A DNA stretch of 64,000 bases from Novosphingobium sp. CECT 9465 (GTDB taxonomy: Bacteria; Pseudomonadota; Alphaproteobacteria; Sphingomonadales; Sphingomonadaceae). This document shows positions 7,847 through 14,763 of the stretch, piece by piece (position 1 is the first letter of the stretch; each line of letters begins with the position of its first letter). The notes beneath the pieces are model-generated. The model was not told the DNA's origin. It saw only the letters and a program-made list of their open reading frames with translations, and did not search any database. A program made the translations under genes and the position numbers. Where the stretch lies: NCBI RefSeq assembly GCF_920987055.1, contig NZ_CAKLBX010000001.1, forward strand, positions 2,032,501 to 2,096,500, in the 5' to 3' direction.

Positions 7847-8323
7847 TCAGATGAACTCGATCTTCTGCACGAGGTAGAACTTGTCACCCGACGGCACGGT
7901 CACTTCGATTTCTTCGTCCACCTTTCGCCCGATCAGCGCCTTGCCCAAGGGTGAGTTGTAGCTGATCATGCCATTCTTGGCGTCAGCTTCATAAGGTCCG
8001 ACGATCTGGTATTTTACCGGCTTGTCATCTTCGTCGAGCAAGGTCACCGTGGCGCCGAAGATGATCTTGTCGCCCGAAAGGGTCGTCGGATCAATGATCT
8101 GCGCGCGGCTTACGCGGTCTTCCAGATCGCCGATTGCGGCTTCGACCTGCCCCTGGCGTTCCTTGGCCGCGTGATATTCCGCGTTTTCGGAAAGATCACC
8201 ATGGGCGCGGGCTTCTTCGATGGCATCAACGATCAGGGGGCGCTCTTCACGCAGCGCTTTCAGCTCTGCGGTCAGGCGTTCATAGCCCGCAGCAAGCATC
8301 GGCAGCTTTTCCACACTCGCCAT
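7847..8323 (-). CDS. greA: Transcription elongation factor GreA
   Basis: A 158-residue factor that rescues backtracked RNA polymerase by stimulating transcript cleavage. The N-terminal coiled coil is clear, including the tip [15 protein letters not shown] that carries the conserved acidic residues and the AEYH motif; the C-terminal FKBP-like domain includes [22 protein letters not shown]. Length is normal. The ATG at 8323 is preceded by GAAAGAGA as ribosome site. It lies 132 bases downstream of carB in the same direction, an arrangement shared by many alphaproteobacteria, and may be partly co-transcribed with it. Confidence 0.97.
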
Positions 8324-8455: not shown

Positions 8456-11400
8456 TCAGCTATAATAGTCCTGCAATGATCGCACTTCAAGTTCGGCAGA
8501 GCGCAAGGCTTCGATTGCCTCGACCACTGCGACCGAAGCAGCCGCCGTCGTGAACGAAGGAACCCGCGCGGCCAGCGCCGAAGCGCGGATCGATTGCGAA
8601 TCCTTGTGGCTCTGCCAGCCTTCGGTCGTGTTGAAGATCAGCGCGATATCGCCATCGATGATCCGGTCCACGATGTGCGGGCGCCCTTCGGCAACCTTGT
8701 TCACCCGCTCGACGATCACGCCCGCATCGGCAAGATAACGCGCGGTGCCGCCGGTGGCCACGATCCTGAAGCCCAGTTCGGTAAGCTTGGCGACCGCTGG
8801 CAGGACCATCGCCTTGTCCGAATCCTTGACCGAGACGAACACCGTGCCGCCCTGCGGCAGCTTTACCCCTGCCCCCAGTTGGGACTTGGCAAAGGCCACT
8901 GCAAAGGTGCTGTCGATGCCCATCACTTCGCCGGTCGATTTCATCTCTGGCGAAAGCACCGGATCGATGCCGGGGAAGCGCGCGAACGGGAACACGGCTT
9001 CCTTGACCGCCATGTAATCGATCTCGCGCTTTATCGGCGGCAGATTGGCCAGCTTTTCGCCCGCCATGATCCGCGCGGCAAACTTGGCAATCGGCTGACC
9101 GATAGCCTTGGCTACAAACGGCACCGTCCGGCTGGCGCGCGGGTTCACTTCGATCAGGTAAACCTCGCCATCCTTGATCGCGAATTGAATGTTCATCAGC
9201 CCGCGCACGTTGAGGCCCCGCGCCAGCAGGATAGCCTGACGTTCCATTTCCGCGATGATGTCCGCAGGCAGACTGTAAGGCGGCAGAGTGCAGGCGCTGT
9301 CGCCCGAATGGATGCCCGCCTCTTCGATATGTTGCATCACGCCTGCGACGGTCACGTCATCACCATCAGCCAGGGCATCGACATCGCATTCGATGGCATC
9401 GCGCAGATACTGGTCGATCAGCACCGGGCTGTCGCCCGAAACCTGCACGGCAGTAGCTATATAGTCGTCAAGCTGCGCCTGGCTGTCGACGATCTCCATC
9501 GCGCGCCCGCCCAGAACGTAGCTGGGGCGGATCAGCACGGGGTATCCGATGCGCGCGGCAACGGCCACGGCTTCGTCACGGCTGCGCGCCATGCCGTTCA
9601 TCGGCTGCTTGAGGCCGAGCTTGTTGACCAGCGCGGCGAAGCGTTCACGGTCTTCGGCAAGGTCGATGGAGTCAGGCGAGGTGCCAAGGATCGGAATGCC
9701 CGCATCCTGCAGCGCTTGCGCCAGCTTCAGCGGTGTTTGACCGCCGAACTGCACGATCACGCCGACCAGTTCGCCGTTCGACTGTTCCAGTTCCAGGATT
9801 TCGAGCACGTCTTCGGCAGTCAGCGGCTCGAAATAGAGGCGATCGGACGTGTCGTAGTCCGTCGAGACGGTTTCGGGGTTGCAGTTGACCATGATGGTCT
9901 CGAACCCCGCTTCGTCCAGCGCATAACAGGCGTGGCAGCAGCAGTAATCGAACTCGATGCCCTGCCCGATGCGGTTCGGACCGCCGCCCAGGATCACGAT
10001 CTTCTTCCGGTCAGTCGGCGCGGATTCGTTCTCCGGTTCGCCGAACAGGCCGCTCTCATAAGTCGAGTACATATAGGGCGTCACCGCCTCGAACTCGGCC
10101 GCGCAGCTATCGATGCGCTTGAACACCGGGCGCACGCCCAGCTTGTGGCGCAGCGCGCGGACTTCTTCCTCGCTGGTGGCCCCGGCCATGGCGTTCAGCA
10201 CATCGTGCAGCAGGCCGGAGCGCTTGGCCTGGGTCTCCCCCAGTCCGCCCGCAACACCGACCGAGCGCACAGCCAGCGTGGCAAGGCGCTTGTCGGAAAA
10301 GCCCATCGCCTTCAACCGGCGCAGGCCAGCGGCATCGTTGGGCAGGCCATCGCGCTGGATCGCGGTTTCTTCCGCGATGATCTCGCAGATATGGCGCAGG
10401 AACCACGGTTCGTACTTCGTCACCGCGTGAACTTCATCGACGGTGAAGCCTTCGCGGAAGGCCTGCGCAATCGCCAGGATGCGCTCCGGCGTGGCCTTGC
10501 TTAGCGCTGCTTTGATCTGATCCCGGCTCGCACCTTCCAGTTCGACCACGCGGTTGAAGCCGTCAAGCCCGGTCTCCAGCCCACGCAGGGCCTTCTGCAT
10601 GGATTCCTTGAAGTTGCGGCCAATCGCCATCACTTCGCCGACAGACTTCATCGCCGTGCCAAGGTTGCTCTCCGCGCCCTTGAACTTTTCAAAAGCGAAG
10701 CGCGGGATCTTGGTCACGACATAATCGATGGTCGGTTCGAACGCGGCAGGCGTTGCCCCGGTGATGTCGTTCATGATCTCGTCGAGCGTGTAGCCAACCG
10801 CCAGCTTGGCTGCGACCTTGGCAATCGGGAAGCCGGTGGCCTTCGATGCCAGCGCGGATGAGCGCGACACGCGCGGGTTCATCTCGATCACGATCAGGCG
10901 GCCGTCGGCGGGGTTGACCGCGAACTGCACGTTCGATCCGCCGGTCTCAACGCCGATCTCGCGCAGCACCGCGATGCTGGCGTTGCGCATGATCTGGTAT
11001 TCCTTGTCGGTCAGCGTCAGCGCCGGAGCGACGGTGATGGAATCCCCGGTATGGACGCCCATCGGATCGACGTTCTCGATCGAGCAGATGATGATGCAGT
11101 TGTCGTTCTTATCGCGGACAACCTCCATCTCGTACTCTTTCCAGCCGAGCAGCGATTCCTCGATCAGGACTTCGGTGGTCGGGCTGGCTTCGAGGCCGCC
11201 CTTCACGATCTTGACGAATTCGTCCTTGTTATAGGCAATGCCGCCGCCGGTACCGCCCATGGTGAAGCTGGGGCGGATGATCGAAGGAAGGCCCGTGCGC
11301 TCCAGAATGACAAGCGCTTCCTCGACCGAATGCGCCACGCCCGAACGCGCCGATTCCAGCCCGATCTTGTCCATCGCCTCGCGGAAGCGCTGGCGATCTT

Positions 11401-11779
11401 CGGCCTTGTCGATCGCATCGGCATCGGCACCGATCATCTGCACGCCGTACTTTTCCAGCGTGCCATCATTGAACAGCGCAAGCGCGGTGTTCAGCGCGGT
11501 CTGCCCGCCCATCGTCGGCAACAGCGCGTCCGGGCGCTCCTTCTCGATGATCCGGGCGACAATCTCAGGCGTGATCGGCTCGACATAAGTCGCGTGCGCC
11601 ATGTCCGGGTCGGTCATGATCGTCGCGGGGTTCGAGTTCACCAGGATGATGCGATAGCCCTCTTCCTTGAGAGCCTTCACCGCCTGCGTGCCCGAATAAT
11701 CGAACTCGCAAGCCTGGCCGATGATGATCGGCCCGGCGCCGATGATCAGGATCGAGGAGATGTCAGTGCGTTTGGGCAT
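8456..11779 (-). CDS. carB: Carbamoyl-phosphate synthase large chain
   Basis: A 1107-residue subunit that makes carbamoyl phosphate from bicarbonate, two ATP and ammonia delivered by CarA, feeding pyrimidine and arginine synthesis. Two homologous ATP-grasp halves are visible, each opening with a Rossmann-like segment ([15 protein letters not shown] in the first, [17 protein letters not shown] in the second), each with an ExNPRxSR motif ([36 protein letters not shown]). The C-terminal domain with [11 protein letters not shown] is the allosteric MGS-like fold. The ATG at 11779 overlaps the stop of the inserted orphan gene (TAATG), so translation is coupled to that gene and not directly to carA. 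Confidence 0.98.
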
Positions 11780-12456
11780 TATTGAATCCCGAGAAATGTC
11801 TTTAAAGCTTCCAATGCAGCACGAACCGCTGCTCGCAAATTCTCTTCACTTGTCTCTTTCAAAGCAGCTTTTAGCGGCTCAAAAATTAAAGAGCGAAGTG
11901 CGCTACGCAACGCAGTCCCACCTCGTCGGAGAAGTTCTAGGCCAAGATCTATGTGGACTCGAAGCCAAGACCGTTCTTCAGCCGCCAAAGAGTTAGATGC
12001 TCTGATTGTTTCGGAGGCGCTTTCAACGGTCGCCAGAATTTCTTGATATCCTGGAAGATTGTCACCAATCGAAACGAAGCGATCTGAAGCAGGAACTGCG
12101 TTCTGAGTGGACTGATCGTTGTCATTTTCGTCAAAATCTGAACTGAGAAATGCTTCAAAATCTGTGTCTACAAAGTGTCGAATCTGAGATTGATTTGTAA
12201 GATACATTTCCTCAATTACCGCATACCCCGCTGCAGTAATTTGATACACGGAGTCACCATCTTCATCGGTGTAGACCGACAAATAATCACTCTCTGCCGA
12301 CGAGTTTAGAGCCATCAATATGCGTTGTCTGCCGATTTTCTTGGCAAAAAAATCGACAACTCCGCCGTCCCACATTGCAGCACGATCAGTTTGGGCAATC
12401 TGAAAATATTTTGCTAAAACCAACGTATTGATTTTGCTTTGCCGAATATAGGTCAT
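11779..12456 (-). CDS. Orphan low-GC gene between carA and carB; winged-helix-like N-terminus
   Basis: A 225-residue protein of unknown function. Its ATG overlaps the carA stop (ATGA, 12453-12456) and its TAA overlaps the carB ATG (TAATG), so it fits the operon to the base. Base and codon use differ strikingly from its neighbours: many A/T-ending codons and an estimated mid-40s % GC. The N-terminal 90 residues suggest a winged helix, ending in a wing-like [17 protein letters not shown]. Residues about 100-120 are acidic linker (DFDENDNDQ). The C-terminal part begins [13 protein letters not shown] and is otherwise helical, closing with [15 protein letters not shown] recall similar 'VPAxDRxVxxxDN' segments in uncharacterised alphaproteobacterial proteins, but cannot verify it. 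No transmembrane segment or signal peptide. The base composition suggests horizontal acquisition. Confidence 0.8.
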
Positions 12457-13631
12457 ACGCCACCCGCCAACATCCCCACGAACTTCTCGAACAGGTAGAA
12501 ACTGTCCTGCGGCCCCGGCGATGCCTCAGGGTGATACTGCACCCCGAACGCGCGCTTGCCCTTCACCGCGATGCCGCAGTTCGAGCCGTCGAACAGCGAG
12601 ACGTGGGTTTCCTCCACGCTGTCTGGCAGCGCCGTGTTGTCCACCGCAAAGCCGTGGTTCATCGAGGTGATCTCGACCACGCCGTCTACCATCCGCTTGA
12701 CCGGGTGGTTCGCGCCGCGATGGCCCTGGTGCATCTTGGTGGTGCGCGCGCCAGCAGCGAGACCAAGCATCTGGTGGCCGAGGCAAATGCCGAACACCGG
12801 CAGGTCCATCTCCAGCAGCTTCTGGATCACCGGCACCGCATAAGCGCCGGTCGCTGCCGGATCGCCCGGACCGTTCGACAGGAACACGCCATCGGGCTTC
12901 AGTTCGAGGATCGTCTCCAGCGAGGTCTGCGCGGGGACCACTGTCACCGCCGCGCCTGCTTTTACGAGGTTGCGGAAGATGTTGTCCTTCGCGCCGAAGT
13001 CCATCGCCACCACATGCGGGCGCGCATCGCGGGGTGAGCGACCGAAGCCCCTGCCCAGATGCCAGACCGAGCCTTCCCACGCTTCCTGCCCGTCACGCGT
13101 GACCACGCGGGCGAGGTCCATACCTTCAAGGCCCGGCCATTCACGCGCGCGTTCGATCAGCGCGGGGATGTCGAACTGCCCCTTGGGGTCGTGCGCGATT
13201 ACTGCGTTGGGTGCGCCGCTCATGCGGATGCGGCGGGTCAGGGCGCGGGTATCGAGGCCTGCAATGCCGATCTTACCCTGCTTTTCCATCCACTTCTGGA
13301 AGGTGCCTGCGCTGCGGAAGTTAGCGGGATCGGTCACGTCCTCACGCACCACGCAGCCGACCGCCCCCGGAACGTCATGGCTTTCCATGTCTTCATCGTT
13401 GGTGCCGACATTGCCGATGTGCGGGAACGTGAAGGTCACCACCTGGCCTGCGTAGGACGGGTCGGTCATCACTTCCTGATAGCCGGTGATCGCGGTGTTG
13501 AAGCACACTTCGCCCACGGCCGAGCCGGTGGCTCCGAAACCACGCCCCCATGCCACAGACCCATCCGCAAGCACTAGGACTCCCGTTGCGCCGTCTGGTT
13601 TAGGCGCATGCGAAAGTGCGGGGTCGGCCAT
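12453..13631 (-). CDS. carA: Carbamoyl-phosphate synthase small chain
   Basis: A 392-residue glutaminase subunit that supplies ammonia to CarB. The N-terminal small-subunit domain (VLADGSVAWGRGFGATG, FNTAITGYQEVMTDPSYAGQ) is followed by a class I glutamine amidotransferase with the nucleophile in VFGICLGHQMLGLA and the catalytic His in GVQYHPEASPGPQ. Length is normal. It is the first gene of the carA-orphan-carB operon and is transcribed divergently from yqeY across a 162-base region that must hold both promoters. No PyrR- or arginine-type leader was recognised. Confidence 0.98.
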   Translation of the reverse strand: MADPALSHAPKPDGATGVLVLADGSVAWGRGFGATGSAVGEVCFNTAITGYQEVMTDPSYAGQVVTFTFPHIGNVGTNDEDMESHDVPGAVGCVVREDVTDPANFRSAGTFQKWMEKQGKIGIAGLDTRALTRRIRMSGAPNAVIAHDPKGQFDIPALIERAREWPGLEGMDLARVVTRDGQEAWEGSVWHLGRGFGRSPRDARPHVVAMDFGAKDNIFRNLVKAGAAVTVVPAQTSLETILELKPDGVFLSNGPGDPAATGAYAVPVIQKLLEMDLPVFGICLGHQMLGLAAGARTTKMHQGHRGANHPVKRMVDGVVEITSMNHGFAVDNTALPDSVEETHVSLFDGSNCGIAVKGKRAFGVQYHPEASPGPQDSFYLFEKFVGMLAGGV

Positions 13632-14249: not shown

Positions 14250-14261
14250 ACGCCAAAAACT

Positions 14262-14283
14262 CCCCTCCCGCCTGCGGGAGGGG
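14262..14283. repeat. Palindrome, left copy flanking the DUF559 gene
   Basis: Perfect 10-bp stem CCCCTCCCGC / GCGGGAGGGG with a 2-base loop, followed by TTGGGGGAGGGCATG leading into the DUF559 start. An almost identical sequence lies in inverted orientation at 14686-14721. It may also act as a weak terminator for yqeY, but there is no T-run. Confidence 0.85.
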
Positions 14284-14295
14284 TTGGGGGAGGGC

Positions 14296-14763
14296 ATGTT
14301 GGACAACACTGGCGAGTTTGATCGCGCTTGGTCCCGCGAGAACGACAAAGGCTACAGCCGCCCCACGGCTCGCTCCCGCGAACTGCGCCAGAATGCCACC
14401 GAGGCGGAACGCAAGCTCTGGCCTTACATTAGCGCACGCAAACTGAACGGCGTTCGCTTCAACCGGCAATTCCCTGTCGGTCAGTTCATTTGCGATTTCG
14501 TCTCACGCGAAATGCGCCTCGTTATCGAACTTGACGGCGGACAGCACGCGACCGCAACAGAATATGATACAAGGCGCACCCGCTTCCTGGAATCGCAGGG
14601 CTACCGCGTGCTGCGGTTCTGGAACAATGAAGTGATGAAAAATATTGAGGGCGTTTTGAGGGTTATTCGGGATACGTTGGATAACATGCCCTCCCCCCGC
14701 CCCTCCCGCAGGCGGGAGGGGCGTTTGTGGTCCCGTGCGCTTCGCGACGGGGAGGTTAAGTGA
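14296..14763 (+). CDS. DUF559 protein, PD-(D/E)XK nuclease fold (Vsr-like)
   Basis: A 155-residue protein of the DUF559 family, related in fold to very-short-patch-repair endonucleases. Visible features are the N-terminal RSRELRQNATEAERKLWPYI, the core GVRFNRQFPVGQFICDFVSREMRLVIELDGGQH with the putative catalytic Asp in ICDFV and the E-L-D-G-G-QH motif, and RTRFLESQGYRVLRFWNNEV. The ATG at 14296 is preferred to a TTG at 14284 inside the GGGAGGG tract, which then acts as ribosome site. The last ~20 codons are encoded by the right palindrome (peptide PSPRPSRRREGR) and the stop overlaps the dnaG start (GTGA). Flanking inverted palindromes suggest that gene plus repeats moved as a unit. Substrate unknown. 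Confidence 0.85.
   Translation: MLDNTGEFDRAWSRENDKGYSRPTARSRELRQNATEAERKLWPYISARKLNGVRFNRQFPVGQFICDFVSREMRLVIELDGGQHATATEYDTRRTRFLESQGYRVLRFWNNEVMKNIEGVLRVIRDTLDNMPSPRPSRRREGRLWSRALRDGEVK
14686..14721. repeat. Palindrome, right inverted copy flanking the DUF559 gene
   Basis: Stem CCCCTCCCGC (14700-14709) / GCGGGAGGGG (14712-14721), preceded by CATGCCCTCCCCCCG. Read on the minus strand it repeats the left copy almost base for base, including the GGGCATG at its inner end. It lies inside the 3' end of the DUF559 reading frame. Confidence 0.85.

Follow-up and report, generated by a model that had tools for sequence, protein, structure and literature searches.

A hypervariable gene slot between carA and carB in sphingomonads, and a two-part protein family found within it

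The 64-kb stretch of DNA examined in this study (the window), taken from a genome of 4.39 Mb in 6 contigs, contains a gene of 225 codons placed between the two genes for the CPSase subunits (Table 1). The upstream neighbor is taken to be carA, and the gene that follows carB, used here for a control junction, is presumably greA. The carA-carB gap is occupied by the slot gene alone, which overlaps both neighbors: its ATG start is shared with the carA stop in an ATGA junction, and its TAA stop overlaps the carB ATG as TAATG, confirming the coupled junctions described in an earlier reading based only on the letters of this DNA (the sequence-only reading). No integrase or transposase of an integrase-borne genomic island was identified in the window's carA-carB gap. 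As that reading also observed, the composition of the gene is unlike that of its neighbors, with a GC content of 0.444 (GC3 0.376) compared to 0.615 for the window. Against a background consisting of the ORFs of the 64-kb window, this is the lowest value among 49 non-overlapping ORFs of at least 150 aa, where the next lowest is 0.574 and the median is 0.615.

Table 1. Features discussed in the text. Coordinates are window positions unless preceded by a locus label (L), in which case they refer to that locus.
Feature	Location	Strand	Remarks
Slot gene	11779..12456	-	225 aa; predicted winged helix, PASDR linker and helical C-domain
carA (name presumed), CPSase small subunit	12453..13631	-	upstream flank of the slot
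carB, CPSase large subunit	8456..11779	-	flanks the slot downstream
greA-like gene after carB (name presumed)	7847..8323	-	control junction
N-terminal part, residues 1-120	12097..12456	-	predicted winged helix; differs between relatives with similar C-domains
Conserved linker motif, residues 121-133	12058..12096	-	alignment of 43 sequences
C-terminal helical domain, residues 134-225	11782..12057	-	helices predicted by AlphaFold2
DUF559 gene of the window	14284-14763	+
Inverted arms overlapping the ends of the DUF559 gene	14253-14307 and 14676-14730		55 nt
VapC-like loci	L017:2848-3524; L043, L052, L059, L070, L117, L119, L120, L131	antisense to operon
Example of the 127-aa family	L068:205-585	carAB strand
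DapF with fused PASDR-type tail	L193:1501-2754		PAAGR variant
Off-slot WTG neighbor	L214		phage integrase, Toprim protein nearby
Off-slot WTG neighbor	L215		D12 methylase and DndB-like protein
Off-slot WTG neighbor	L216		serine recombinase beside ComM-like ORF (name presumed)
Off-slot WTG neighbor	L218		MmeI-type enzyme
WTG-tail gene with adjacent large serine recombinase	L216:9437-13288

Besides the slot protein itself, approximately 5.8 billion proteins yielded three matches (62, 46 and 56% identity), which align over 79-100% of its length. In five pairs of C-domains among relatives, pN was 0.20-0.34 compared to a saturated pS of 0.77-0.85; the three database homologues, together with pN below pS in all five pairs, indicate that the ORF is coding beyond what chance would produce. 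The slot protein matched no family among the Pfam and NCBIfam profiles and none of the PADLOC defence families. The possibility that its homologues form a known housekeeping family is not upheld. AlphaFold2 returned, with moderate confidence (mean pLDDT 69.9, pTM 0.39), the architecture that had been guessed from the sequence (an N-terminal winged helix, a linker and a helical C-terminus), placing a predicted winged helix at residues 6-87, a linker of low pLDDT at residues 108-128, and C-domain helices at residues 137-153, 159-178, 183-201 and 205-222. The model of a relative (P0007) reached a mean pLDDT of 93.0 and a pTM of 0.63, and shows a winged helix and a C-domain of four helices with a helical region between them. 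Many winged-helix chains were found among the PDB matches of the N-terminal part (best E 0.016, none below 0.01), and the PDB matches of the tail included four-helix bundles, none at E 0.001; both are taken as resemblances of fold, not of function. The predicted N-terminal fold is similar to that of the PadR, MarR/MepR and STIV F93 winged-helix regulators; however, the slot protein differs from PadR/MarR-type regulators in lacking a sequence-family match and in possessing an extra conserved linker and helical tail. Among 43 PASDR-family members, PadR, GntR, MarR_2 and HxlR were each matched once (best E 0.0012). The consensus of the linker motif is PASDR-x-V-x4-N, in which R126, V128 and N133 are invariant across 43 aligned sequences, including 3 loci outside the taxonomic family. 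We define a PASDR tail as this motif together with the C-domain behind it, about 100-114 aa in length when measured from the motif onward, and the slot protein has this arrangement. A 19-residue segment with a mean hydropathy of at least 2 occurs in only 5 of 32 C-domains, making a membrane role a weak proposition.

The junction that holds this gene varies greatly among relatives. Of 195 genomes of the genus, carA was detected in 180, and 148 loci from 147 genomes (G138 has two carA genes) were drawn from the score-ranked carA matches listed, in which fragmented or divergent carA genes are under-represented. The start of carB was matched in 144 of these loci (L012, L097, L134 and L142 end before carB, and the carB start of L119 was placed by hand), which together with the window's own locus gives 145 junctions among the matches listed. 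Across these genus junctions the carA-carB gap spans -1 to 1937 bp, and the genes inside it are many and unrelated: 14 gaps are 10 bp or shorter, 20 are 11-199 bp, 41 are 200-499 bp, 54 are 500-999 bp and 16 are at least 1000 bp, the gaps of L063 (679 bp) and L095 (7 bp) being uncertain because the automatic carA stop lies well beyond the aligned end of carA. Thirteen of the 145 junctions, among the matches listed, consist of nothing but TAATG or TGATG. Both junctions were measured on a single contig in 105 genomes, using greA places on the contig of a sampled carA locus and assuming a constant carB length; there, the carB-greA interval measures 96-160 bp (SD 15), whereas the carA-carB interval measures -1 to 1937 bp (SD 398); the latter exceeds 250 bp in 71 of the 105 genomes and the former in none (0/105). 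Relatives with carA 90-95% identical contain other genes or an empty slot. When the junctions of relatives are compared, as the sequence-only reading had proposed, the window's gene is a sporadic occupant of a gap with highly variable content, and the gene has no strong match other than itself in the 195 genomes of the genus, which speaks against its being shared by most relatives with matching GC. Fixed core genes around highly variable content, the arrangement seen at carA-carB, also characterize core defence hotspots.

A profile of four sequences, made before the slot was recognized, identified the slot gene and five weak matches in the 195 genus genomes, and all five weak matches sit between the carA and carB genes of their own genomes. 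The N-terminal parts of these five proteins are all different, while a PASDR or PAADR motif and a helical tail are common to them. A C-domain profile matched 15 of the 195 genus genomes and 18 of 298 family genomes (18 of 96 genera), with one copy each and with the source genome counted in both tallies; its 18 sequences were largely slot proteins, a seeding that may favor slot relatives. One genus match (G094) consists of the helical part only, without the motif. All 32 distinct sphingomonad C-domain loci are flanked by carA and carB, one on each side, with extra genes also present in the gap at some of them (e.g. L159, L168 and L173). Six further C-domain matches (L189-L194) were found in 385 genomes of the class; L190, L191 and L194 (the last weak, at E 0.002), which come from other families, are located in the carA-carB slot, and L189 and L192 lie outside it. 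A scan of genome contigs placed one locus from Acetobacteraceae (L007) in the slot and another (L008) elsewhere. Overall, 36 of 40 PASDR-tail loci are in the slot, the exceptions being L008, L189, L192 and L193. At L193, a diaminopimelate epimerase (DapF) carries a PAAGR variant of the PASDR-type tail fused at its C-terminus. A start was located at 27 of the 32 PASDR loci, and in 24 of these 27 it overlaps the carA stop, although the script searched from the carA stop onward and accepted the first start it met, and thus favors overlap. The stop overlaps the next ATG (as TAATG or TGATG) in 20 of the 27, and in 16 of these 20 the carB match begins at that ATG. Two queries against plasmids and one against phages gave no match. 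An effector-associated adaptor domain is the same small helical domain on at least two proteins per genome; no such second C-domain protein was found at E 0.01 or below in the positive genomes. The PASDR-tail family is an undescribed, two-part family that, among the sphingomonads searched, is found in the carA-carB gap only.

These results alter the view that the window's gene was acquired by capture into the operon. The low GC content, the sporadic distribution, the intact operon and the lack of a known family are all in keeping with an acquired gene; a recent one-off capture is not required, however, since the slot is hypervariable and the protein family is tied to it (32/32 sphingomonad loci). 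The captured-gene view is too narrow, the slot gene being just one of the genes that occupy this hypervariable gap.

The family is also modular. In the 32 motif-bearing proteins, the C-terminal part measured from the motif is 100-114 aa long and the N-terminal part 94-173 aa, and C-domain identity does not track carA identity (r=0.07, 32 proteins). Loci L167 and L177, from different genera, encode C-domains that are 69% identical and N-terminal parts that cannot be aligned, and the same is true of L158 and L159 (C-domains 56% identical). Conversely, the carA genes of the window's locus (L162) and L160 are 94% identical, compared to 30% for their C-domains. Pure shuffling is disfavored by pairs that have an N-terminal part in common (L163/L169 and L173/L175). 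Partial copies of the 5' end of carB, 11 to 41 codons long, are present in 10 of 131 gaps of at least 30 bp, among the carA matches listed. At L118 (reverse strand) the order is carA, gene, carB', carA', second gene, carB, and the 78-nt carA' shares 88% identity with the L046 carA tail and 77% with the carA tail of L118 itself; the genome is a draft of 130 contigs (87% complete), and an assembly error might account for the tandem scar. Read most simply, these arrangements suggest that cassettes move together with fragments of carA and carB and recombine at these genes, in some cases on one side alone.

The same 131 gaps (at least 30 bp, among the carA matches listed) contain diverse cargo. DUF559 proteins occur in 18 gaps and VapC-like proteins in 9, all antisense to carAB (one example of each confirmed). 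L017 encodes a PIN protein together with a FitA-like antitoxin, and five of the nine VapC-like loci (L017, L043, L052, L119 and L131) also contain an incomplete carB start copy. A family of 127 aa, encoded on the carAB strand at loci of host-like GC, occurs in 39 of the 131 gaps and is possibly the resident slot gene of one clade; the one example scanned had no Pfam family. Seven gaps (L024, L027, L034, L049, L077, L092 and L116) contain a low-GC family of 74-79 aa on the carAB strand, several members of which contain GEKFVQIDTYGSK; a 74-aa example, the one scanned, likewise had no Pfam family. The gap of L052 contains a SLATT_1/DUF4231 protein. Among 49 chosen slot proteins, one matched SLATT_1 and one the PADLOC candidate model PDC-M14B (E 1.1e-5), and lipoprotein-like ORFs were recognized by eye among the slot genes. 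The window itself has a DUF559 gene, a relative of those found in the 18 gaps; the inverted arms that overlap its ends are 87% complementary and REP-like, and the gene with its arms looks like a small mobile unit.

The slot is also used by another two-part family, whose members carry a WTG tail. All three genus matches of this family (one being the query itself) are located there, and a WTG-tail gene was recognized by eye in the slot of L065. In the 298 family genomes, 13 matches were found in 12 genomes, with 8 in the slot and 5 elsewhere. Four of the five off-slot genes lie within about 5 kb of mobile or restriction-modification genes (Table 1), and the fifth lies near a DUF4238 protein. At L216, the large serine recombinase adjoins both the WTG-tail gene and an ORF that we take to be ComM-like, which suggests that an integrative element resides at this site.

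Variability at this junction has precedents. In Neisseria, the carA-carB intergenic sequence is variable between species; the junction is the same, but the variable material is repeat-rich sequence and is not known to include gene cassettes. An ORF is also present at this junction in two Gammaproteobacteria: in Xanthomonas citri, a 444-bp ORF overlaps carA by one base and is co-transcribed with carA and carB, and Pseudomonas aeruginosa is given as carA-orf-carB-greA (PMC4619228, citing Lu et al. 1997). The authors state, with data not shown, that the two ORFs are dissimilar to each other; in contrast to sphingomonads, the passages on these operons describe single ORFs and neither a hypervariable slot nor a dedicated family (PMC4619228). 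The P. aeruginosa core defence hotspots cDHS1 and cDHS2 (PMC10250203) resemble the slot in having variable lower-GC cargo, fixed core genes and no single mobilizing element. However, cDHS1 extends over 1-224 kb (median 26 kb) and is rich in known immune systems (PMC10250203), whereas the carA-carB slot contains mostly one or a few genes that lie within an operon and overlap both neighbors, and its defence role is only putative.

The explanation we favor joins an accessory-gene slot, entry by flanking homology and a solitary conflict protein, and we regard the combination as having an even chance of being correct. The carA-carB junction of sphingomonads and some other Alphaproteobacteria is on this view a gene slot in which accessory genes can arrive, be exchanged or vanish while carAB stays intact, these genes retaining junctions in which stop and start codons overlap (GTGA or ATGA at the carA side, often TAATG at the carB side). 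Cassettes lacking an integrase of their own may enter by recombination on homologous carA and carB flanks, sometimes on one side. Least certain is the role of the 225-aa protein, which may be a solitary phage or mobile-element conflict protein co-produced with CPSase, whose variable winged-helix module would sense a target and whose conserved linker motif and four-helix tail would act on a common host partner. Of the explanations considered for the slot protein, we prefer, with moderate confidence, that of a putative single-gene sensor-effector in such conflict. This role is favored by the SLATT_1/DUF4231 protein, VapC-like and DUF559 genes in the gaps and by the location of off-slot WTG-tail genes near mobile or restriction-modification genes. 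Evidence against it includes the lack of matches in PADLOC, Pfam, NCBIfam and the plasmids and phages queried, the four PASDR-tail loci off the slot, one of them fused to DapF, and the many slot genes unlike any defence gene, such as the lipoprotein-like ORFs and the 127-aa family.

There are several other potential explanations for the contents of the slot. Selfish or neutral cassettes might spread by flanking homology, their deletion endangering carAB, and confer no benefit on the host. This would account for a sporadic, location-locked, single-copy gene, for mixed cargo, partial flank copies and the 13 bare junctions described above; nevertheless we consider it unlikely, as C-domain amino acids are conserved across saturated synonymous change and the linker has three residues that never vary across 43 sequences, which together imply a protein function. 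It is more doubtful still that the protein serves CPSase as an accessory regulator or as a partner in assembly, with a DNA-binding winged helix and a tail touching CarA or CarB. Its strict linkage to carA and carB in many genera, which holds even at slot-linked PASDR loci where carA is only 58-59% identical to that of the window, is what such a partner would show, as are the overlapping reading frames and the predicted resemblance to PadR/MarR regulators. However, the family is present in only a small share of the genus and family genomes (15/195 and 18/298), other genes or none fill the slot where carA is 90-95% identical, the N-terminal parts are unconserved, and the WTG-tail family fills the same slot. 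Finally, the low GC content, few close homologues and winged-helix fold might be explained by a mobile-element gene that landed by chance and was kept by drift, but the placement of all 32 sphingomonad family loci at one site makes this very improbable.

Returning to the favored explanation, a bolder and tentative version of it, which we think somewhat more likely wrong than right, is that the junction is a candidate immunity slot in an essential biosynthetic operon, present in several families of Alphaproteobacteria and driven by the operon, where, in a dedicated family of sensor-effector proteins, recombination between carA and the conserved tail would swap N-terminal recognition modules and produce lineage-specific specificities. 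The interval from carA to carB offers a precisely bounded locus in which PCR or a survey of genomes can recover undescribed accessory genes, and the slot is a natural experiment on the entry of foreign genes into an overlapping operon. If its cargo is defensive, the slot would be a hotspot missed by island-based searches, since it contains single genes of no known family within a housekeeping operon.
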